From positions 1-46,599 of the IMG/VR virus record IMGVR_UViG_3300037882_000626: a DNA stretch of 46,599 nucleotides; one strand, 5' to 3'. Position 1 is the stretch's first letter. Each line of letters begins with the position of its first letter. This document shows, piece after piece, positions 2,447-46,599 of this stretch. The position numbers were made by a program, and so were the translations under genes. The notes under the pieces were generated by a model. That model was not told the origin of the DNA. It ran no database searches and saw only the letters and a list, made by a program, of their open reading frames with translations. The DNA comes from a virus.

Positions 2447-2946
2447 CCCCCGCAATCGAGCAAGCCGTGAAGGCGTTGGAACGTATATCGAAGATGTACG
2501 CTAACACATGGGATTTAGTTGATGGCGGACTAATGATGTTTCAGGAAGGAATACCTGAATTTGAAGCAGCGCATGAAGATGTTGTTCAAGCCCTCACTTC
2601 ACTCCGCGCCCTAACCGAGCCTGCGGCAGTGAGCAAAACCGATGAGGAATTGGCTAGGGAGTTGGCTGATAAGTTTGAGCAAGAATTATGCGGTTCTATT
2701 AATTCAGGATTTGGCGTTGATTTACTAACCCAAGCCTTCACCGCCATACGCGCACAGGCAAGGAGTGAGGTGTTGGAGGAAGCGGCAGAATACTTTCAAA
2801 TCCAGCTTGATAAATTCAATGAGGAGCACTCAATGCAGGATATGGAAAACGGCGTGTATGAATACGGCAATAATGCTGAAGCTGAATACGCTGAAACTAT
2901 GACGTATTTTATTGAAGAAATCCGCAAGTTAAAGTACACCAAATGA
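2443..2946 (+). CDS. Hypothetical helical protein
   Basis: This encodes 167 residues, mostly acidic and helical. The N-terminus (IEQAVKALERI, VVQALTSLRAL) resembles modular start segments shared among unrelated phage proteins; a similar layout is seen at 6441 and 3915. The C-terminal half is glutamate-rich. ATGA-type overlap links it to both neighbours. The function is unknown. Confidence 0.65.
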   Translation: MTPAIEQAVKALERISKMYANTWDLVDGGLMMFQEGIPEFEAAHEDVVQALTSLRALTEPAAVSKTDEELARELADKFEQELCGSINSGFGVDLLTQAFTAIRAQARSEVLEEAAEYFQIQLDKFNEEHSMQDMENGVYEYGNNAEAEYAETMTYFIEEIRKLKYTK

Positions 2947-3506
2947 AATTCCAAATTAAATCACGTTTTGACGCATCGGTTATTTTTGAATGTGAGTTAG
3001 ACGCTTCATTCGAAACTAAACATTCATCAATTCAATTAGGCGCGGCTGTTAAAATTGCTTATGCAGAAAAGAAAAACCTGCGAGGGGCTTACCTGCAAGC
3101 GGCTTACCTGCAAGCGGCTTACCTGCAAGGGGCTGACCTGCAAGCGGCTGACCTGCGAGGGGCTGACCTGCAAGGGGCTGACCTGCGAGGGGCTTACCTG
3201 CGAGGGGCTGACCTGCAATCGGCTGACCTGCAAGCGGCTGACCTGCGAGGGGCTGATGGCAAAAAAATTAAACTCATTGGAGGGCAGCCAATTATTTCAA
3301 TCGGCACACTTGGAAGCCGTCAAGATTACTTACTAGCCTATGAAACAGAAAAAGGCATTTACATAAAAACTGGGTGTTTCTTTGACACGATAAAAGCCTT
3401 CAAGAAATCAGTAAAAGAAAAACACAGCTCAAATGTTCACGGCAAAGAATACGCGGCGGCTATTAAAATGATTGAATCTGTATTTAAAGCGAGGGCAACC
3501 AAATGA
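2943..3506 (+). CDS. Pentapeptide-repeat protein
   Basis: This encodes 187 residues. Residues 45-104 are twelve consecutive pentapeptides of the form (D/Y)L(Q/R)(G/A/S)A, which in this family build a right-handed quadrilateral beta-helix. The flanks are non-repetitive. The C-terminal part (IGTLGSRQDYLLAY, IKTGCFF, NVHGKEY) resembles a C-terminal module that I recall from other phage and prophage pentapeptide proteins. Pentapeptide proteins include DNA mimics that act on gyrase, but this short helix is not enough to claim that activity. The DNA repeats are nearly identical, implying recent expansion. Confidence 0.85.
   Translation: MKFQIKSRFDASVIFECELDASFETKHSSIQLGAAVKIAYAEKKNLRGAYLQAAYLQAAYLQGADLQAADLRGADLQGADLRGAYLRGADLQSADLQAADLRGADGKKIKLIGGQPIISIGTLGSRQDYLLAYETEKGIYIKTGCFFDTIKAFKKSVKEKHSSNVHGKEYAAAIKMIESVFKARATK
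3075..3254 (+). repeat. Twelve tandem 15-bp repeats inside the pentapeptide gene
   Basis: The repeat unit is close to ACCTGCRAGSGGCTK and runs without interruption for 12 units. Units differ at only a few positions, which switch Gln/Arg, Ala/Gly/Ser and Asp/Tyr. Because the unit is 15 bp, every reading frame through it stays open and spurious ORFs appear on both strands. Confidence 0.9.
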
Positions 3507-6249: not shown

Positions 6250-6444
6250 ATGACTGACATGACCAGACCTTTGATTGGCGTAATGTTTAAGCAATGGCGC
6301 ACTGGATGCGGATATTCGATACGCGATGTTGAGACAATTACGGGAATAAATAAAAGCCAGATTTCACGGCTTGAACACGATAAACCGCTAGACCAAGCCA
6401 ATACAATTAAACTAATTAATTTTCTTTTTGGATTTTATCAATGA
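6250..6444 (+). CDS. Small HTH protein (Cro/CI type)
   Basis: This encodes 64 residues. The segment around residues 8-50 (FKQWRTGCGYSIRDVETITG then KSQISRLEHDK) follows the five-helix Cro/C1 HTH pattern, with the recognition helix near NKSQISRLEH. AAGGA lies 6236-6240. It has no dimerisation domain, so it may act as a Cro-like regulator. It could act at the operator at 7679-7693, but that link is inferred. Confidence 0.7.
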   Translation: MTDMTRPLIGVMFKQWRTGCGYSIRDVETITGINKSQISRLEHDKPLDQANTIKLINFLFGFYQ

Positions 6445-7301: not shown

Positions 7302-7474
7302 TATTGGCCGGAGGACGTACAGTAAATGAAAGCTCAGTGCCGGATATTGATTGTGTTTCAGAATGGGAAAATTCTAAAGGCGAGCGCGTGATTCTAATTC
7401 AAAACAACGTAAAATCCTACAAAGCCATGTCCCAAGCTGGGCGCATTACTATGAAAGATGAAAATGACACCTAA
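7298..7474 (+). CDS. 58-residue hypothetical protein
   Basis: ATG 7298 overlaps the upstream stop, giving 58 residues with a beta-like core (ERVILIQNNVKSYKAMSQ). Its 3' end overlaps the start of the HTH gene by 11 bases, matching operon style. No family recognised. Confidence 0.4.
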   Translation: MILAGGRTVNESSVPDIDCVSEWENSKGERVILIQNNVKSYKAMSQAGRITMKDENDT

Positions 7475-7634
7475 ACAATTAAAAAAATGGCGTTTAAAAA
7501 ATAATTTAACGCAAGTGCAAGCGGCGGAATTGCTAGAATTGTCGCGTTCGCATTACCAGAATATCGAATCTGGGAAATGGCCGATAAAGAAAGCAGTAGC
7601 GTCTATAATTATTTTGCACGATTTGCAAAAATAG
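7464..7634 (+). CDS. Short XRE-family HTH protein
   Basis: This encodes 56 residues, essentially a single HTH_XRE domain: MTPKQLKKWR, then NLTQVQAAELLELSRSH and YQNIESGKWPIKKAV. The pattern of L-T-Q-x-x-x-A-x-x-L and a recognition helix before IESGK is typical. It is the last gene before a promoter that carries a palindromic operator 36 bases downstream of its stop. It is therefore a good candidate for the protein that binds that operator, though this is inference. Confidence 0.7.
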   Translation: MTPKQLKKWRLKNNLTQVQAAELLELSRSHYQNIESGKWPIKKAVASIIILHDLQK

Positions 7635-8740: not shown

Positions 8741-8965
8741 ATGAATGAACCAAAACCAGAAATTTTAAAGGCCATGATGCCTGATATGCACTTTGCTGGA
8801 TATTATGCGCTCATGATTATGAACGGATTATCGCAATGGGGACACGCGCAACAAATTAGTCACGATTTTGTTACGACTGGCCGCCGTGTTTTAATGTTCA
8901 CGCCGAATGCTGAAAAAATACAATATCGAATTACGATTGAACCTATTTATGGAGATGATAAATGA
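8741..8965 (+). CDS. Hypothetical small protein
   Basis: This encodes 74 residues with an aromatic centre (DMHFAGYYALMIMNGLSQWG) and a beta C-terminus. It overlaps the exonuclease start by 4 bases. Its location implies a role with the recombination genes; no family is recognised. Confidence 0.55.
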   Translation: MNEPKPEILKAMMPDMHFAGYYALMIMNGLSQWGHAQQISHDFVTTGRRVLMFTPNAEKIQYRITIEPIYGDDK

Positions 8966-9654
8966 CGATTACATACCACGCTGATTTAATCCAAGGCAGT
9001 GACGAATGGCTTGCGGCACGGTGCGGATTATTAACTGCTAGTGAAATGAAGCTGATTTTAACGCCAACGCTTAAGGTTTCCGCTAATGAAAAAACACGTT
9101 CGCATCTATACGAATTATTAGCTCAACGCGTCACAAGGTACGTAGAGCCGCATTATATTAGCGATGATATGTTGCGTGGGCGGTGCGATGAAATTGAAGC
9201 GCGTATTTTGTATAACGAAAAATATGCGCCTGTTTTAGAATGTGGTTTTATCACGAATGATAAGTGGGGTTTTACGCTTGGATATTCACCGGATGGATTG
9301 ATTGGCGAAGATGGATTAATTGAGGCAAAATCGCGCCGCCAAAAGTATCAGGTGCAAACATTTTTGGAATGCGCCGATACGCAAACTATTCCTGAAGAAT
9401 ATATCTTACAGACCCAAACCGGACTATTAGTTAGTGAACGTAAATGGTGCGATTTAATTAGTTATTCCGGCGGGCTGCACATGATTACAATACGTGTTTT
9501 TCCTGATGCAAAAATTCAATCTGCAATTTTAGAAGCTGCTAGTTTATTTGAAAAACAGATTGCGGAAAAAATGGCAAATTACGAACGAATTATAAGCACG
9601 TATCCGCGACTAATTCCAACCGAGCGTAAAATTGAACAGGAGATAATAGTATGA
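8962..9654 (+). CDS. YqaJ-family viral recombinase exonuclease
   Basis: This encodes 230 residues of the YqaJ/lambda-exonuclease-like PD-(D/E)XK family, which resects double-stranded ends 5' to 3' for annealing recombination. It has the family start QGSDEWLAARCGLLTAS (residues 11-27), the catalytic set D111 (YSPDG) with E121-A-K123, and the downstream Q-x-Q-T-G motif near residue 150. The usual partner is a single-strand annealing protein; the next gene occupies that position. Start and stop overlap the neighbours by 4 bases. Confidence 0.9.
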   Translation: MTITYHADLIQGSDEWLAARCGLLTASEMKLILTPTLKVSANEKTRSHLYELLAQRVTRYVEPHYISDDMLRGRCDEIEARILYNEKYAPVLECGFITNDKWGFTLGYSPDGLIGEDGLIEAKSRRQKYQVQTFLECADTQTIPEEYILQTQTGLLVSERKWCDLISYSGGLHMITIRVFPDAKIQSAILEAASLFEKQIAEKMANYERIISTYPRLIPTERKIEQEIIV

Positions 9655-12370: not shown

Positions 12371-13332
12371 AAGCAATCAATCAAGTTATTACTGATAATT
12401 ACGCTATTTACGAAGGTGATAGCTGTGAAATTATGCTGTCATTACCAGAAAATAGTATTGGATTTTCTATTCATTCGCCACCGTTTGAGGGATTGTATAA
12501 GTTTTCTAATTCAGATAGAGACGTGTCAAATTCTGAAGGCGAAAACTTCTGGATACATTACGGCTTTATTATTAAAGAATTGTACCGCATTACAAAAGCA
12601 GGACGTTTAGCCAGCGTTCATGTAATGCAGCTGCCAACCAGTAAAACTAGAAACGGCTTTATCGGCATGCGTGATTTTAGAGGTGAAGTTATTCGGGCGT
12701 TTGAATCCGCCGGATGGTATTTTCATAGCGAAGTATGTATTTGGAAAGACCCAGTAGTCGCACAGCAGCGCACAAAATCTATTCGTTTACTTCACAAGCA
12801 GATGGAAAAAGATAGCTCAATATCAGGCCAAGGGCTTGCTGATTATATTGTTACGTTTCGCAAAAAAGGCGAGAACGAAGAACCGATTAAAGGAAAACTT
12901 GAATACTATATCGGTGAAGGTAATGCACCTGAACCAATTGAAAGCAAGCTAAAGCGTCAAAGTCAGCAAGATGCTGAAAAATGGTATTCGATTGAGGTAT
13001 GGCAACGATATGCCAGCCCTGTGTGGACAGATATTAGTCAAAGCAGAACTTTACAATATCGAGGCGGTCGTGATGAAAAAGATGAACAACACATATCGCC
13101 GTTACAGTTAGACGTAATTGAGCGTTGCATCCACCTTTGGAGTAATCCAAATGATACTGTTTTTACGCCATTTATGGGTATAGGAAGCGAAGTTTTCGGC
13201 GCGATTGAATTGGGACGAAAGGGGCTTGGTATCGAATTAAAACCTACGTATTTCTCACAAGCGGTTAAGAACCTTCACAATGCGAAAAATAATAGAAGTT
13301 CGTTATTCGATACAATCACTGAGTGTGCATGA
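12361..13332 (+). CDS. N4/N6 DNA methyltransferase
   Basis: This encodes 323 residues. The catalytic motif IV is SPPF (residues 39-42), preceded by SIGFSIH, and the SAM-binding motif I (FTPFMGIGSEVFGAIELGRK) is near the C-terminus. This IV-before-I order is the beta class, whose SPP-type motif often means N4-cytosine methylation, although N6-adenine is possible. The motif is not the DPPY of CcrM. No restriction endonuclease lies next to it, so protection from host restriction or epigenetic control is likely. Confidence 0.85.
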   Translation: MAIKAINQVITDNYAIYEGDSCEIMLSLPENSIGFSIHSPPFEGLYKFSNSDRDVSNSEGENFWIHYGFIIKELYRITKAGRLASVHVMQLPTSKTRNGFIGMRDFRGEVIRAFESAGWYFHSEVCIWKDPVVAQQRTKSIRLLHKQMEKDSSISGQGLADYIVTFRKKGENEEPIKGKLEYYIGEGNAPEPIESKLKRQSQQDAEKWYSIEVWQRYASPVWTDISQSRTLQYRGGRDEKDEQHISPLQLDVIERCIHLWSNPNDTVFTPFMGIGSEVFGAIELGRKGLGIELKPTYFSQAVKNLHNAKNNRSSLFDTITECA

Positions 13333-13622
13333 TGGTATCAGTGAAAAATATTATTAAAACCGTTGGTGAGCATTACGGATTTTCAGAACAAGAAATGACG
13401 TGTAAAAATAAACGTCAAAAACTTTCTGATGCTAGGCAGGTTGCTATGTATTTGGCTAATAAAATGACTAGATTTAGCTATCCGGTTTTAGGAAAATTAT
13501 TTAAGCGTGACCACACTACTGTTATTTACGCAGTAAATAAAATTAAGAGAAATGAAACGCTTCTTAAGAAAGCTGAATTTTTTACAGAATTTTTGAACTC
13601 ATCGCCAAAATCTATCGAATAA
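13329..13622 (+). CDS. Stand-alone DnaA domain IV (DNA-binding) protein
   Basis: This encodes 97 residues from ATG 13329, overlapping the methyltransferase stop. The body matches DnaA domain IV: an N-terminal helix (IIKTVGEHYGFSEQEM), KRQKLSDARQVAMYLANKMT, then GKLFKRDHTTVIYAVNKIK, which carries the RDHTTV DnaA-box recognition signature. The ATPase domain is absent. Such a protein could bind DnaA boxes in host or phage DNA and compete with, or redirect, host DnaA. It ends the rightward early operon. Confidence 0.85.
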   Translation: MMVSVKNIIKTVGEHYGFSEQEMTCKNKRQKLSDARQVAMYLANKMTRFSYPVLGKLFKRDHTTVIYAVNKIKRNETLLKKAEFFTEFLNSSPKSIE

Positions 13623-40414: not shown

Positions 40415-41599
40415 CTAAATTCCAAACAAACTAGAACGCCGTTTTATTAGGCGTGAAAGAGCATAACGCATTGCATCCATGCAGTGATTATGCTTATCAA
40501 CAATATCCGGCAAAACTTCGCTGGTTAGCTTATCAATTTTGTGTGAATAAAGCAAAAGTTCATTTACTGTCTTTGGACATGACGGGCGAACTATGATTTT
40601 ATCGAAGCTACCGCGTATGTATTCGATGCCGTCTTCAACGCTGCCCTTCCATTTTTCTACGCCTTCGATATTGAAACCTTTGGCCTTAACGTGACTGATT
40701 GTTTCAGGTCGTGCGTTATCGGCGTAAATTCTATATTTTCGGCAATCCGTAACTTTATCAAATAGTGCTGGTATATCGTCTAATTCTGTGTGTACGCCGT
40801 ATGCCTCTTGGTCAATATAGAGATTATGCCCATGCACCCAGCATTTTACCAACACAGTAGGGTCAGTCGAGAAACCCCAATCTGCGCCGTAATATGGATG
40901 CCATGTAGCGGGGTCAGGCGTGAAATTATCCACAATCCACTTGCCGCGAAATATCTGGGCATCGCTTCTAGTGCTGCATTTTCCTTCCCAAACGTGCTGA
41001 TAGCCGTCTGGGTCACGGCGTAACATCGCTTGCCGTTCCATCTCTAAAACGCTTGGAAACCATGGATTATCGCGCCAATTGATTTCAGTTATCTTGGCAT
41101 TAGATGGCGCATCGTCAATTAAGCGCAGTTTTGTAGGGCTATCGGTGCGTTCTGGATTCCATGTCGCCCATATTTCGGAATTATCATTGCGGATTGTTGG
41201 AATTAAAACTTTCCATGAATTTTCCGATATATATTCAGCTTCTTCTAGCCAAACAATATCAATATCAGTCATGGATTTAATGGAATTTAAGTTATTCCAA
41301 AAGCCGCGATATAGGATTTCAGTGCCGTTTCTTCCAACAATTTTCTTATCTTGGCAGTCGTAAAAATCACGTAAACCTAGCGTATCAACCTGCTTGCATA
41401 ATTCTGCGTGTACGCTGTCTTTGATGCTGTTTTGAAACTCGCGGCCACACAACAAACGCCGTGGTTTTTCTAAGCCTTTGAGTAACAGCATTTTTGCAAA
41501 TGTTGCTGATTTTGCGCTGCCACGTCCGCCATGTGCGCCGCGATACCTAGCCTCGCCTTGAAATATCGGGATTAGCTTTTCGGGTATTTCAATCTGCAT
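40415..41599 (-). CDS. terL: Terminase large subunit
   Basis: This encodes 394 residues from ATG 41597-41599. Walker A is GGRGSAKS (residues 24-31), Walker B IDIVWLEE (113-120), motif III-like ATWNPER, and the nuclease has ADWGFSTDPT, YADNARPE and HCMDAMRYAL. It is a PBSX-type terminase. It overlaps the small subunit gene by 11 bases. A longer start at 41626 lies inside that gene. Confidence 0.92.
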   Translation of the reverse strand: MQIEIPEKLIPIFQGEARYRGAHGGRGSAKSATFAKMLLLKGLEKPRRLLCGREFQNSIKDSVHAELCKQVDTLGLRDFYDCQDKKIVGRNGTEILYRGFWNNLNSIKSMTDIDIVWLEEAEYISENSWKVLIPTIRNDNSEIWATWNPERTDSPTKLRLIDDAPSNAKITEINWRDNPWFPSVLEMERQAMLRRDPDGYQHVWEGKCSTRSDAQIFRGKWIVDNFTPDPATWHPYYGADWGFSTDPTVLVKCWVHGHNLYIDQEAYGVHTELDDIPALFDKVTDCRKYRIYADNARPETISHVKAKGFNIEGVEKWKGSVEDGIEYIRGSFDKIIVRPSCPKTVNELLLYSHKIDKLTSEVLPDIVDKHNHCMDAMRYALSRLIKRRSSLFGI

Positions 41600-42011
41600 C
41601 TTGCTTATTAGCAGCCACGCCCACAACGTTAATTACAGGCGAGATATTTGAACCGTCCGCGTTTTGGATTTGCGTTGTGGATTTTGACTTACCCTCCACG
41701 CGGTCTAAGAGCGCATCACGTTCGCCGCGTAAATCATCATTCCCGCTTGCCGTAGTAGTCAGATTGCGGTCAATCGCACGCGCAATGTGCATAAACGCCA
41801 TGGCATCCATTGGATGAACGCATATTTTTGCAAGCTTCTTTTCGTCCGAAACTATTGCAAGTATTTCCTCGGTTGTGTAATTTTCAGTGAGCTGGGCAAC
41901 ACGCGTTGCATAAGGTGTCCATATAGATGTTGGCCTTCCTCCAGCGTTCAAAACACTGCCTGCTTTTATTTTCCCGTTTTCGTCGCGCTCAACTGCCATC
42001 TCTGCTGTCAT
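41589..42011 (-). CDS. terS: Terminase small subunit
   Basis: This encodes 140 residues. It lies before the large subunit and has AGGRPTSIWTPY, an HTH-like helix pair (EEILAIVSDEKKLAKICV) and RDALLDRVEGK. Family match is weak and position provides much of the support. It would bind the pac or cos site. A second ATG at 41997-41999 is possible. The promoter at 42035-42063 should drive it. Confidence 0.75.
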   Translation of the reverse strand: MTAEMAVERDENGKIKAGSVLNAGGRPTSIWTPYATRVAQLTENYTTEEILAIVSDEKKLAKICVHPMDAMAFMHIARAIDRNLTTTASGNDDLRGERDALLDRVEGKSKSTTQIQNADGSNISPVINVVGVAANKQDAD

Positions 42012-42034
42012 ATCCTATTGAAATTAATAAACGA

Positions 42035-42063
42035 ATTATAATTACTTTCAACATTTTCGGCAA
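42035..42063 (-). promoter_or_regulatory. Late leftward promoter
   Basis: On the minus strand, TTGCCG (42063-42058) is followed after 17 bases by a perfect TATAAT (42040-42035). Transcription should start near 42028, giving a leader of about 17 bases before terminase. The -10 is within the 16-bp repeat motif at 42036-42051, so a protein bound there would silence the late operon. Confidence 0.6.
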
Positions 42064-42281
42064 CAAAAATATAGTGTTGCAAAAATACTCGCTAGGTACA
42101 GCCCTAAATTTTACCGTTCAAACCGGAAGAGGAACGTTCACATTCAGGAAATTTTTGCCTATTTTTTGTGCATTAACTAAAATTAATTTGTTAAAAAATA
42201 GTCGTTTGAAAGTAATTATAAATCAATAATAGTAGAATGAAAGTAAATAGTAAAAAAACAAAACTAAATTATTCATTACGA

Positions 42282-42518
42282 TGACAGACTGAAACCGTCA
42301 CTAAACCGTCACTGAAACCGTCACCTAACTTTTATCCTTATATATCATATACTTATTTATTACGGTGACAGTATGACAGTTATTATTGATTATAAATGGA
42401 AAAGTGATGATTTAGAGGAGGTAGGGTAGGTTCATAAAAGATGCTATATGGAAAAGTCTGTCACTACCGCAACACTGTCACTAAATCATATGAGAATTGA
42501 ACTAAAGTTAGTGACAGT
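42282..42518. repeat. Repeat family B: CYGTCACTAA iteron-like boxes
   Basis: Three direct copies AAACCGTCACT begin at 42292, 42303 and 42315, only 11-12 bases apart. Others are inverted or variant: TGACAG at 42282, GTGACAGT at 42365, ATGACAGT at 42373, CTGTCACTA at 42458, ACTGTCACTAA at 42474-42484 and its inverted partner TTAGTGACAGT at 42508-42518. Helical-phase spacing is typical of iterons or operators. Confidence 0.75.
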
Positions 42519-42527
42519 TTCTATAAT
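42497..42527 (+). promoter_or_regulatory. Rightward promoter for the replication operon
   Basis: TTGAAC (42497-42502) and TATAAT (42522-42527) are separated by 19 bases. The -10 is perfect but the spacing is long. The inverted family B box (42508-42518) sits in the spacer, so binding would repress it. The transcript would carry the structured leader before the primase. Confidence 0.5.
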
Positions 42528-42675
42528 ATAGATTTTGCGTAAAATTATTTACTTTCATTTTATCTACGTAGAAGTAATTATTATTTACTTTCAATCATAA
42601 TTGAAATACTGCCTAAAAATTAATCAAACGCAGAAAATTGGTGACAACTAAATCCGTGAATTGCTTTCAATCTCC

Positions 42676-42769
42676 AACGTTCTTAGCGTTAGCATCTGGG
42701 GCTAGGCCGCGCAGCCGAAAATATGTTGCTGAGACATATGCCCCACCATCAGCTCAGTGCCTACTCAGC
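42676..42769 (+). ncRNA. Structured leader resembling c4/P4 CI antisense RNA
   Basis: A GC-richer segment folds well by eye. The stem GGGGC/GCCCC (42698-42702 with 42740-42744) closes around two hairpins: GGC/GCC (42705-42707, 42714-42716) and ATATGT/ACATAT (42721-42726, 42734-42739). An AACG/CGTT hairpin precedes it (42676-42690). The loop of the last hairpin, TGCTGAG, can pair with CTCAGC at 42764-42769, 10 bases before the primase start. The layout matches P1 c4 and P4 CI RNAs, which repress downstream genes by such pairing. Identity with a known RNA family is not established. Confidence 0.5.
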
Positions 42770-42778
42770 GGGTCGATA

Positions 42779-44878
42779 ATGAATGAAAATGAATTTTATA
42801 ATGCCGTTACGGCGCAAGGGTTTAATTGCGGCAAGGTCGTGGCCGATGGGAAATTTCACCGATTCGATGTCGTTAAAGGCGATAAGGCTGGTTATTACAA
42901 ACTCACACCGGACGGTTTTGGCGTATACGGCAACTGGAAAACAGGCGAACAGTTCAAATTCTTTGCAGGGCGCACTGAAAATTTAACAGAAAAAGAACGC
43001 CAAGACCTTAAAGCCGCATATAAGGCACAACAACGCGCCGCCAAAGAGAAGATTGAAAACGATAACGCCAAGGCCGCAAACGAAGCTAGGCGTATCTGGG
43101 ATGCTGCAAACGAAGCCACAAGCCATCCCTACCTAGAAAAAAAGCAAATCGCGCCACACGGGCTTAAAATTGATGATAAGGGTAATTTGCTTATTCCAAT
43201 TTATGAAGGCGAGAAATTAGTTAATTTACAAAGAATTGATAAAAACGGCAAAAAGCTATTCGTTTACGGTGCAAAAAAACGCGGCTGTTATTCTTTAATC
43301 GCAGGAACACAAGGCGTTATTTTTATTTGTGAGGGGTTTGCCACGGGGGCAAGCGTAAACGAAGCCACGGGGGCAATGTGCATCGTTGCGCTAGATGCTG
43401 GCAATCTGTTGCCTGTAGCTAAGGCTATTCGGAATAAATACGGCTTAGGTCAAAAGATAATAATAGCTGCCGATAACGACCAGTGGACTGTAATTAAAGA
43501 TGAAACAATAAACGTAGGTATCAAGGCCGCAAATGAAACATCCTATGCAATCGGTTGCGAAGTAAAATTCCCGAAATTTCATAATGATGATGCCGATAAA
43601 AGAACCGATTGGAATGATTGGGCAAGCGGCTTTGGCTTGCAATCCGTCAAAGATGAATTAATGCCGCATGAAACTGCGCTCATGGTTGCCGAAAAAAAAT
43701 CTATGCCGGATATAATGCCGGAATTAATTTTAAACGAAAACGGAAAGCCAAAATGTATTATTGATAATTTAAAAAACCTGTGTGACATGCACGGTATTAT
43801 TTTGCGTTATAACGTCATAAAAAAAAGTGAGGAGATTTTAATACCGAATGAATTTTACAGTTTAGATAACAGCCTCAATGCAAGCTACGCTCATGTGCTT
43901 TCTTTGTGTGAGATTAACGACATGAGCACAAAGCACATTGGAGATTATATGACCAACATTGCCGATAAAACGCCATACAATCCTGTTGCTACGTGGATTG
44001 AATCCGCACCGTGGGATGGCGTAAGTCGATTGGATGAATTTTATGCCACAGTGAAATGTACGAATGAGCCGTTACGCGATATTATTTTAAAAAAATGGAT
44101 GATTAGCGCAATCGCAGCGGCGTTTTCGCCATACGGCATATCCGCGCATGGTGTTTTGGTATTTCAAGGCCAGCAGTATTTAGGCAAAACGTCATGGTTT
44201 AAAAGCCTAGTGCCAAAAGAATTAGAGGCGATTAAAGATGGTTATATTTTGCGTTTGGATGATAAAGACAGCGTCTTTCAATGCCTATCACACTGGATGG
44301 TAGAACTTGGTGAATTAGAAGCCACGTTTAAAAAATCTGATATTGCCCAGCTTAAAGCGTTCATCACAAGCGATAAAGATATTTTACGTCGCCCTTATGC
44401 CAGAAAAGAAAGCGTTTACCCACGCCGCACGATATTTTTTGCATCCGTAAATCAGAAAGAATTTTTATTCGATGAAACAGGTAATCGGCGGTTTTGGGCA
44501 ATTGAAGCACTGGCCTTGAATTATAACCACGGCCTGAATATGCAGCAGATTTGGGCGGAATTTAAAGTGTTATATGATTGTGGTGAAAACTGGATTATGA
44601 GCTTTGAAGAAAACGAACTCATAAACACAAGCAATGAAGAATTTACGGGCGCGGATTTTCATGACGAGTTGGTTGCCAGTAAATTCAACTGGAACGATTA
44701 CAGTATGTTTGATGATGTATGGAAAACCGTCACCGAAGTTGCATTATTTTTAGGAATACAGAATCCGAAACAACAGGATTTAAACCGCGTCGCCAAAGCT
44801 GTGAAAAAGTATAACGGCGATAAGTCAAAACGTGGGGCTGGGGGCGTGAGATTAGTTTGCGTACCGTGGCGTGATTGA
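42779..44878 (+). CDS. Toprim-VapE primase-helicase
   Basis: This encodes 699 residues. An N-terminal region is followed by a toprim-like domain (EGFATG at 185-190, DAGN at 206-209, ADND at 231-234) and a C-terminal VapE/virulence-associated E ATPase domain with Walker A GQQYLGKT (464-471) and MVELGELE (507-514). It would prime and unwind DNA at the neighbouring repeats. The frame is open back to TTG 42638, but those extra codons run through the structured leader, so ATG 42779 is preferred. Confidence 0.88.
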   Translation: MNENEFYNAVTAQGFNCGKVVADGKFHRFDVVKGDKAGYYKLTPDGFGVYGNWKTGEQFKFFAGRTENLTEKERQDLKAAYKAQQRAAKEKIENDNAKAANEARRIWDAANEATSHPYLEKKQIAPHGLKIDDKGNLLIPIYEGEKLVNLQRIDKNGKKLFVYGAKKRGCYSLIAGTQGVIFICEGFATGASVNEATGAMCIVALDAGNLLPVAKAIRNKYGLGQKIIIAADNDQWTVIKDETINVGIKAANETSYAIGCEVKFPKFHNDDADKRTDWNDWASGFGLQSVKDELMPHETALMVAEKKSMPDIMPELILNENGKPKCIIDNLKNLCDMHGIILRYNVIKKSEEILIPNEFYSLDNSLNASYAHVLSLCEINDMSTKHIGDYMTNIADKTPYNPVATWIESAPWDGVSRLDEFYATVKCTNEPLRDIILKKWMISAIAAAFSPYGISAHGVLVFQGQQYLGKTSWFKSLVPKELEAIKDGYILRLDDKDSVFQCLSHWMVELGELEATFKKSDIAQLKAFITSDKDILRRPYARKESVYPRRTIFFASVNQKEFLFDETGNRRFWAIEALALNYNHGLNMQQIWAEFKVLYDCGENWIMSFEENELINTSNEEFTGADFHDELVASKFNWNDYSMFDDVWKTVTEVALFLGIQNPKQQDLNRVAKAVKKYNGDKSKRGAGGVRLVCVPWRD

Positions 44879-46307
44879 GTTACGCGATTATCAGCATGAA
44901 TTGATTGCAGATACCCGTGCAAGCCTTGCCGTGCATAACAGCACGGTTATGCAGCTTGCGACGGGCGGGGGGAAAACACTAACGACAGGATATATTGTAA
45001 AATCAGCAATCGAAAAAGGGCGACGTGCGATATTTTGCGTTCACCGAATTGAACTGGTTAATCAAACGAGCGCGGCGTTTAATAAGTTAGATATTCCGCA
45101 TGGATTTATTACCGCGCAAGATGATTATGATAGTTCAAAATTGGTTCACATTGCCAGCATAGACACGTTACGCCGCAGATTAGATGACGTTATCCAGCCT
45201 GATTTACTGATTATTGACGAAGCCCACCGCGCCATGGCTGAAACGTGGCAGAAAGTAATCAACCACTGGCCGAATGCTAAGAAGTTATTGATTACAGCAA
45301 CGCCCGAACGTCTTGACGGGAAAGGCTTGAAACACGTAGCGCAGGATTTAGTTTTAGGAAAATCTACGCGATGGTTGATTGACCACGGATACTTGACCAT
45401 GCCGCGTTCGTTCGCGCCAAGTGAGCCGGATTTGACGGGCGTGAAAACAACGGCGGGTGATTATAAAATAGATGACCTTGCGATGGTCATGGATAACAGT
45501 TCCATCACTGGCAACGCTGTCACGCATTACAAAAAGCACTGCGATAATATGCAAGCTATTGTTTTTGCCGTTACGATTGAACACTCAAAAAATGTCGTTA
45601 AAGAATTTTTAGATAATGGCATACCTGCAGCGCACTGCGATGGTTCATTTAGTAAAATACAGCGCGAAGATATTATCGAGCGTTACAGATACGGCGAAAC
45701 GAAGGTCTTAAGCAACGTAAATTTGTTCACGGAAGGGTTTGACGTTCCGAATGTACAGGCGGCTATACTGTTACGCCCCACAAAATCACTGGCCATGTAT
45801 TTGCAAATGGGTGGACGTGCATTGCGTCCAGTCTATGCCGATGGATATGACATACAAAATCAGCAAGGTAGATTAGATGCGATTGCTAATGGCCATAAAC
45901 CATTCGCAATAATACTTGACCACGCTGGGAACACTAAGCGGCATGGGTTATTGCACATTGAGCGCTCATGGTCACTAGAAGGAAAAAAAGGGCGGCCTAA
46001 ATCCAAGATTGTAAACTCAACCTGCGAAGTTTGTTTCTGCACATGGGAACGCAAGCCGAATAAGCCGATTGCTTGCCCTGCATGTGGATGGATGCCAGAG
46101 AAAAAAGAGAAAGAAGGTGCAGAATACGTAGAGGGTGATTTGCAAGAAATTACTGAACAAAATAATCCATGGGCATGGGCAAAAACATCATCACTCACCA
46201 AGGTTATGTCACACGTTAAAACCAGAAAAGATTTACAAGATATAGCCAAGGCACGCGGCTATAAACATGGCTGGGTTTTTTATAAAGCGAAGGAGCTAGG
46301 CTTATGA
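44871..46307 (+). CDS. DEAD/DEAH-box helicase with zinc ribbon
   Basis: This encodes 478 residues from GTG 44871, overlapping the primase stop by 8 bases. The start LRDYQHELIADTR is the Q-like motif; Walker A is TGGGKT (31-36), DEAH follows (IIDEAHRA), then TATPERLDG, and the motif VI region contains YLQMGGRALRP. A zinc ribbon (CEVC and CPAC) lies near residues 385-405. It is like the Res/SSL2 type in phage replication modules. No nuclease domain is seen. Confidence 0.88.
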   Translation: MIELRDYQHELIADTRASLAVHNSTVMQLATGGGKTLTTGYIVKSAIEKGRRAIFCVHRIELVNQTSAAFNKLDIPHGFITAQDDYDSSKLVHIASIDTLRRRLDDVIQPDLLIIDEAHRAMAETWQKVINHWPNAKKLLITATPERLDGKGLKHVAQDLVLGKSTRWLIDHGYLTMPRSFAPSEPDLTGVKTTAGDYKIDDLAMVMDNSSITGNAVTHYKKHCDNMQAIVFAVTIEHSKNVVKEFLDNGIPAAHCDGSFSKIQREDIIERYRYGETKVLSNVNLFTEGFDVPNVQAAILLRPTKSLAMYLQMGGRALRPVYADGYDIQNQQGRLDAIANGHKPFAIILDHAGNTKRHGLLHIERSWSLEGKKGRPKSKIVNSTCEVCFCTWERKPNKPIACPACGWMPEKKEKEGAEYVEGDLQEITEQNNPWAWAKTSSLTKVMSHVKTRKDLQDIAKARGYKHGWVFYKAKELGL

Positions 46308-46599
46308 GCGAGACAGATTTGCTTAAAAAAATTGTTGCCGCGTTATGCAAAAACTTCCCTGATGGTTTATGGATACGTCGGAATGTTGGCGGCGTTAAAA
46401 CAGAAAACAGATTTATAAAATTTGGTGTTTCTGGCCAAGCTGATATTCAAGGAATATATCAAGGCCTAGCGTTTGAAATTGAAGTAAAAACAGAAAAAGG
46501 AAAACAATCCGAATCTCAAAAGAGATGGCAGCAAGCAGTTGAACGTTGCGGCGGCTCTTATATTCTTGCCCGTGACGTGGATTCTGCGATTAATTCTGT
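46304..46599 (+). CDS. VRR-NUC nuclease, cut by the window edge
   Basis: The first 98 residues have WIRRNVGGVK, GVSGQADIQGIY and AFEIEVKTEKGKQSESQKRW, matching VRR-NUC, a PD-(D/E)XK nuclease family seen in phage replication blocks, likely a Holliday junction or flap nuclease. The catalytic D and E-x-K are present (D47 region and E-V-K). It overlaps the helicase stop (ATGA). The gene is not closed within the window, but would stop at base 19 on a circle. Confidence 0.85.
   Translation, partial: MSETDLLKKIVAALCKNFPDGLWIRRNVGGVKTENRFIKFGVSGQADIQGIYQGLAFEIEVKTEKGKQSESQKRWQQAVERCGGSYILARDVDSAINS

Follow-up and report, generated by a model that had tools for sequence, protein, structure and literature searches.

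A candidate P4/PICI-type iteron origin beside the primase-helicase gene of a tailed phage, and variant boxes in its relatives

The closest described systems to the locus analysed here are the replication origins of P4 and of PICI/SaPI elements. P4 encodes a Toprim primase fused to a helicase, and its 8-bp iterons (GGTGAACA) lie on either side of an AT-rich stretch, with a box-43-box-10-box arrangement in ori; its crr, separate from ori, comes directly after the alpha gene. The accessible part of PMC4234260 describes alpha as binding its repeats by a winged helix. PICI/SaPI origins work with Pri-Rep proteins that contain a VapE-type helicase (PriRep1, PDB 7pds; PMC6092414 and PMC7581432, both in excerpt), and one paper, in the portion available, calls this layout common to no known bacterial replicon besides PICIs. 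The SCCmec helicase Cch2, according to an excerpt of PMC7581432, is thought to be self-loading and binds direct repeats beside its own gene, but it has three 5-nt iterons and a separate primase, and belongs to a chromosomal cassette. A putative iteron origin has also been proposed for the Francisella phage KIRK, placed by its authors near Jilinvirus; as far as the available section of PMC7924643 goes, that origin is called lambda-like and consists of four repeats inside a CII-type replication gene. This kind of origin is already known from P4 and PICIs; the candidates described here have other boxes and belong to phages with their own structural genes. We found no literature on such origins in Jilinvirus or its relatives among open-licence papers, which is weak evidence of absence, and the accessible part of the BASEL paper (PMC11990801) makes no mention of one.

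The window, as we call the whole stretch of DNA analysed, comprises the 46,599 bases of IMG/VR record IMGVR_UViG_3300037882_000626. The record has no repeats at its ends; its last reading frame (46300-46599 and 1-45), with a partial VRR_NUC match under the family cut-off (E 6.8e-5), reads on past the ends until it meets a stop codon. The record may thus represent a whole genome, circularly closed. A minus-strand late operon, with portal and terminase large subunit genes, and a primase-helicase gene on the plus strand are separated by a 767-bp gap (42012-42778) with a GC content of 32%, against 42% for the whole window. The earlier note had placed a repeat-dense putative origin here, between divergent operons and next to the primase-helicase, and gene calls and domain matches agree with this placement. 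The 140-aa gene adjoining the gap on the left (41589-42011) gave no match in a family search, and a search for its relatives returned none; we presume from its position that it is terS. No DNA-level relative of 41400-43400 was found among 50,697 phage records, and the best identity of the primase to those of named phages is 42% (Achromobacter phage Mano). GC-skew analysis, which the earlier note had proposed for a switch near 42.3 kb, shows a sign change at 42 kb, negative to the left and positive to the right. Because gene direction also reverses there, the turn lends no independent support and was dropped as an origin signal. Elsewhere in the window, the early operon ends with a gene (13323-13622, plus strand) for a 99-aa protein that resembles DnaA domain IV alone (Bac_DnaA_C, E 2.9e-24), with no AAA+ domain seen. 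Coordinates of the features in and next to the gap are collected in the table.

Table. Features of the gap between the divergent operons and of the adjoining primase-helicase gene (window coordinates)
Feature	Position	Strand	Remarks
TGAAAGTAA, near presumed terS	42042..42050	-	
TGAAAGTAA, outer left	42207..42215	+	
TGAAAGTAA, inner left	42238..42246	+	
First iteron box, ATGAC variant	42281..42285	-	inverted relative to the array after it
Array of 3 direct iterons	42292..42329	+	AAACYGTCACY; spacing 11 and 12 bp
AT-rich segment, candidate melting region	42325..42362	.	amid opposed iterons
Inverted iteron pair	42363..42380	-	GTGACAG / ATGACAG; 45 bp past last direct box, then 8 bp
G-rich stretch	42415..42430	+	GAGGAGGTAGGGTAGG; by eye
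Second iteron cluster	42455..42521	.	boxes 42460 and 42477 on +, 42511 on -
TGAAAGTAA, inner right	42549..42557	-	mirrors 42238
TGAAAGTAA, outer right	42585..42593	-	mirrors 42207
Outlying GTGAC box	42641..42645	-	
int-alpA-like structured RNA in primase leader, sub-threshold	42695..42759	+	Rfam RF02996
Primase-helicase, 699 aa	42779..44878	+	Toprim_3 181-281; VapE-like AAA+ 407-622; C-terminal winged-helix-like domain about 645-699 (proposed iteron reader)

Two motif families are concentrated in the gap relative to the rest of the window. Strict GTCAC occurs seven times in 42012-42600 and 63 times elsewhere (70 in total); over the whole gap there are eight copies, compared with a mean of 0.63 in dinucleotide shuffles, none of which (0/2000) reached eight. 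The count of nine GTCAC-type boxes in the earlier note holds if two ATGAC variants (42281 and 42373) are added to the seven strict copies, and a tenth box follows at 42641. Its 11-12 bp spacing of three copies is likewise correct: the direct boxes start at 42297, 42308 and 42320, two of them being AAACCGTCACT and the third AAACCGTCACC. P4/PICI-type origins are characterised by short iterons clustered far above chance, by opposed iteron sets around an AT-rich segment and by a primase-helicase gene nearby. All three are seen here: three boxes point rightward and two leftward around a 25-mer with only two G/C, which starts at about 42338 and is the AT-richest within 42250-42640, and the primase-helicase gene begins right after the gap. 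The cluster precedes this gene, in contrast to PICIs and to P4 crr. By eye, a G-rich stretch (e.g. AGGGGGTAATAG) follows the inverted pair or the AT-rich part in the window and in loci L260, L255, L259, L256 and L002.

A replication origin of the P4/PICI type is the best reading of the GTCAC boxes. The segment 42281-42521 is very probably a phage origin opened by the primase-helicase bound to GTGAC/GTCAC iterons, a reading that rests on box enrichment, the domains of the neighbouring gene, recurrent clusters in relatives, the geometry of P4 ori and the tracking of box core and protein wing described below. The window differs from P4 in several respects. It has late genes of its own, portal and terminase included, has one compact cluster in place of separate ori and crr, uses other boxes (GTGACRG) and has a VapE-type helicase domain, as Pri-Rep does; its primase matches P4 alpha significantly over only 104 Toprim residues (39%). 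PICIs, for their part, are satellites, whereas origins of the window type are found in phages with their own structural genes and with other boxes.

Relatives were examined with a genome-wide search for clusters of k-mers, with no motif presupposed. In KA2-1, ep3, Persinger, ECO1230-10 and Alexa a top or near-top cluster occupies the intergenic sequence that immediately precedes the late-activator gene (gp60 of Persinger was called late activator by position), with 12 GGTGAC, 9 GTCAC, 9 GTCAC, 11 GGGAC and 11 AGTGCA boxes, respectively. Strong GTGAC clusters lie likewise upstream of the late activator in Arya, Mica, Alux-21 and ECOO78, and ET-SD-TH, whose record is without annotation, has a strong GGGAC cluster resembling that of ECO1230-10. 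The leading inverted box of the window is also present in KA2-1, Arya, Alux-21, ECOO78, ECO1230-10 and Mica. The cluster is upstream of the primase gene in the window and some kb downstream of it in the Jilinvirus group, an arrangement unlike that of PICIs. LPPA36 has a GGGACA-type cluster just downstream of the primase operon; weak clusters were seen in PPpW-3 (five boxes of GGGAC type) and in Mano (AGTGTA, upstream of the late activator, near 39.8 kb). In FoX1, which has a primase relative, neither the k-mer scan nor a 6-mer statistic gave a convincing cluster. Among more distant loci, L104, L002, L006 and L004 carry arrays of other boxes with AT-rich centres right after the primase stop codon, and arrays upstream of the primase occur in Aeromonas phage phiWae15 (GCCTCC) and Vibrio phage 1.009.O (GGGCAC). 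Most regions hold nine to fifteen boxes around AT-rich centres. Thus, the comparison with sister phages that the earlier note had called for shows recurrence of the GTCAC-type clusters; the second motif fared differently (see below). The strongest k-mer cluster of the window itself comes from a repeat-rich gene (2943-3506, plus strand) encoding a pentapeptide-like repeat (AYLQGADLQ and similar).

A noncoding 6-mer statistic reached a score of at least 8 in 16/30 relatives (including the window, P4, many close kin and whole genomes) and in 5/169 control loci of at least 5 kb. The corresponding Fisher P-value of 1e-11 is overstated, since members of Jilinvirus are close kin, the window was the trigger of the analysis and the relatives include whole genomes; conversely, the count of clusters is too low, because the open-frame mask hides those of Mica and LPPA36. 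When eight further relatives were taken blind to their repeats, two reached the cluster score. At least seven GTGAC per 300 bp were found in only one of 199 other loci (1.73 Mb), namely in a coding repeat. Two GTGAC clusters in control loci were rejected: that of L060 is a coding codon repeat rather than iterons, and that of L014 sits in coding-looking sequence. A genuine-looking cluster of GTGACAA iterons around a TATATA-rich stretch was observed at 2560-2870 of L028, a phage fragment with a related terminase; no primase was found on its 11.7-kb record. Pairs of the form GTGACN{4,9}GTGAC were sought in six distant records, and three contained matches, few in number.

The position of these clusters bears on the idea that the boxes form a terminase recognition site, cosB- or pac-like. 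The gap adjoins the terminase genes, with 270 bp between the first box and the start of the presumed terS at 42011. In KA2-1, however, lysis genes and a distance of over 2 kb separate the cluster (41130-41430) from terS (78-602 of the 43,668-base record), and in Mano the predicted cohesive end (1-7) is away from the weak cluster. The steady neighbour of the clusters is the primase, and TerS and TerL have no sites that track the box switch described below (PPpW-3 was not in this comparison). We regard a terminase site as extremely unlikely.

The spacing of opposed boxes supplies a further link between the proposed origin and P4. The P4 record annotates ori type 1 repeats, most copies of which are TGTTCACC, and the order in ori is a rightward box, 43 bp, a leftward box, 10 bp and another leftward box; in crr the distances are 43 bp and then 18. 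The window has 45 and 8 bp, with the same sum of 53 as in P4 and within a range chosen post hoc. Distances of 43 and 10 are found in ECO1230-10, ET-SD-TH, Arya and Alexa, 43 and 9 in KA2-1, 44 and 8 in Persinger, and 41 and 10 in Mica. Of the 15 regions tested, 11 contain a rightward box paired with a leftward one at 41-45 bp, a range fixed once the data had been seen, and eight contain the full triple. LPPA36, PPpW-3, L002 and L006 lack this spacing, and ep3 fits only at another pair. The chance of such a pair per region is 0.5-10% under uniform placement (not computed for Alexa), and 16-46% under gap-order shuffles in regions holding such a gap. Since the chance for a single region can be as high as 46%, the argument from geometry rests on recurrence over distant lineages and on no one region.

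The box core itself varies, with GGGAC in place of GTGAC in ECO1230-10/ET-SD-TH and in PPpW-3. In a primase tree built without the C-terminus, PPpW-3 pairs with Persinger (GTGAC; support 0.998), while ECO1230-10 falls among GTGAC phages of Jilinvirus; the change from GTGAC to GGGAC thus happened in two lineages. To follow it on the protein side, 24 KA2-1 proteins were compared with their counterparts in three GGGAC and seven GTGAC phages, a discriminating site being one where all three GGGAC phages agree on a residue found in no GTGAC phage. Five of the 24 proteins were found in all ten phages, and among these, discriminating sites are confined to the primase, at 4 of 766 positions (458, 540, 736 and 740). 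No such site was seen across the ten phages in the small repressor, resolvase, gp47 or the late activator. The portal has 21 and several other proteins also have some, but PPpW-3 is missing from those comparisons, so these sites may only mark kinship; RecE has three in a comparison that includes PPpW-3 and lacks ET-SD-TH and Mica.

Two of the primase sites (458 and 540) are outside the C-terminus. The other two, 736 and 740, align with residues 683 and 687 of the window protein and lie in a predicted beta-wing (strands 683-685 and 691-696) at the C-terminal end. This wing reads ARKSGS in both GGGAC lineages, PPpW-3 and ECO1230-10, and the wing sequence KRSNG is common to Alexa (AGTGCA) and Mano (AGTGTA, the weak cluster). 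The primases of ECO1230-10 and ep3, whose boxes differ, are 85% identical up to residue 690, whereas 5 of 13 residues (38.5%) agree in the wing segment. The full-length structural model was poor (mean pLDDT 66, pTM 0.37), and the C-terminal part alone was used. Its model (mean pLDDT 70) aligns with many winged helices; the alignment with residues 347-470 of PriRep1 bound to dsDNA (7pds) is modest (Z 5.1, 69 residues), and Foldseek returned nothing at E <=0.001. The AAA+ part matches 7pds at the sequence level with E 9e-23. From these models and comparisons, the predicted winged-helix C-terminus of the adjacent primase-helicase is the likely reader of the boxes, and the words used as boxes seem to vary in step with a single small portion of the enzyme.

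The same comparison helps to judge whether the boxes could be operators of a transcriptional regulator serving both divergent operons and take no part in replication. Both operons have their promoters in the gap (9 promoter-like sites in 41900-42900, 3.9 expected), the phage encodes two small HTH proteins (6250-6444 and 7458-7634), and the cluster of the Jilinvirus group sits upstream of the late-activator gene. However, the small repressor hardly differs from its KA2-1 counterpart (95-98% identity) in GTGAC and GGGAC coliphages alike, and no site that follows the switch was seen in this repressor or in the late activator. Arrays directly after the primase in L002, L104, L006 and L004, as with crr after alpha in P4, also do not fit operators of this kind, and most regions have more boxes than a usual operator, with AT-rich centres. 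We therefore consider it unlikely that the boxes are only operators.

Opening of the origin by DnaA, either that of the host or the phage domain IV protein, with the GTGAC boxes only modulating it, appears very improbable. The phage does encode the Bac_DnaA_C protein (13323-13622), and three of the four perfect TTATNCACA of the window are located at 40542-41794, in the terminase genes left of the gap, which may be chance. Yet the gap has no cluster of DnaA boxes and not one perfect TTATNCACA, a count allowing up to one mismatch shows no enrichment across the window (45 boxes, with 61.7 expected), and the phage protein shows no AAA+ domain.

If the primase-helicase is the initiator, binding, melting, loading and initiation at 42281-42521 can be pictured by analogy with P4 alpha, SaPI Rep and Cch2. 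Several copies of the enzyme would bind the GTGAC/GTCAC iterons via the C-terminal winged helix, and the opposed boxes, about four helical turns apart, would set two assemblies across the AT-rich stretch. This stretch would then open, the helicase would load in both directions, and the Toprim domain would prime after loading.

More tentatively, and with somewhat less than even confidence, we suggest that self-sufficient tailed phages include a widespread class of replicon whose ten or so boxes change jointly with the winged-helix tip, yielding mutually private origin codes. Candidate codes include GTGAC, GGGAC, GTGCA, GGTGTACAT, GGGTGG, GGAGGC and others. If true, private codes could be how related phages and P4/PICI satellites in one host keep replication apart, and free phages would be a possible source of satellite replicons. 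The box and wing changes also offer a natural series from which to learn how such initiators read DNA. A candidate origin is now available for the window phage and for ep3, ECO1230-10, KA2-1, Arya, Persinger, Mica and Alexa; we found no published origin for these seven named phages.

The second motif of the gap is TGAAAGTAA. The earlier note had counted at least five copies, and there are indeed five exact ones in 42012-42600, with only two elsewhere in the 46,599 bases (21477- and 21765-); when the gap was shuffled 2000 times with dinucleotides preserved, this number was never reached. The pairs 42207/42585 and 42238/42549 frame the iteron block near-symmetrically, with midpoints at 42400 and 42397.5. 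A scan of viral contigs for the extended form WTGAAAGTAAWTANTAAW gave at least 119 stretches, with one match per locus among the 80 listed. TGAAAGTAA thus looks private to the window phage, and it was dropped as a conserved motif, as the single matches among the 80 loci listed show no link. Probably it is a separate, phage-specific putative protein-binding site that frames the origin and promoters. The idea of an iteron origin overlapped with operators is well supported in its first half, for GTCAC, by virtue of the relatives, the P4 geometry and the covariation of the primase C-terminus; the operator half is conjectural for TGAAAGTAA, for which a putative regulator operator is our simplest guess. 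One locus fetched by the unrelated TGAAAGTAA scan, L156, has clustered GGGACA/TGTCCC boxes in noncoding AT-rich sequence at 8780-9100.

The leader of the primase-helicase gene contains a stretch that scores 20.8 bits over the full length of the int-alpA model, below the gathering threshold of 35.8. The fold energy of the leader was no better than that of shuffles, and the P4 stretch scanned contains C4 and isrK RNAs instead of int-alpA. The hallmark of the window RNA, GGGGCTAGGC-N(3-9)-GCCGAAAA, was found in only three viral contigs, where no relative of the window proteins tested was detected. Since all three score 35.0-40.5 bits for int-alpA, the window RNA is probably a divergent member of this family.
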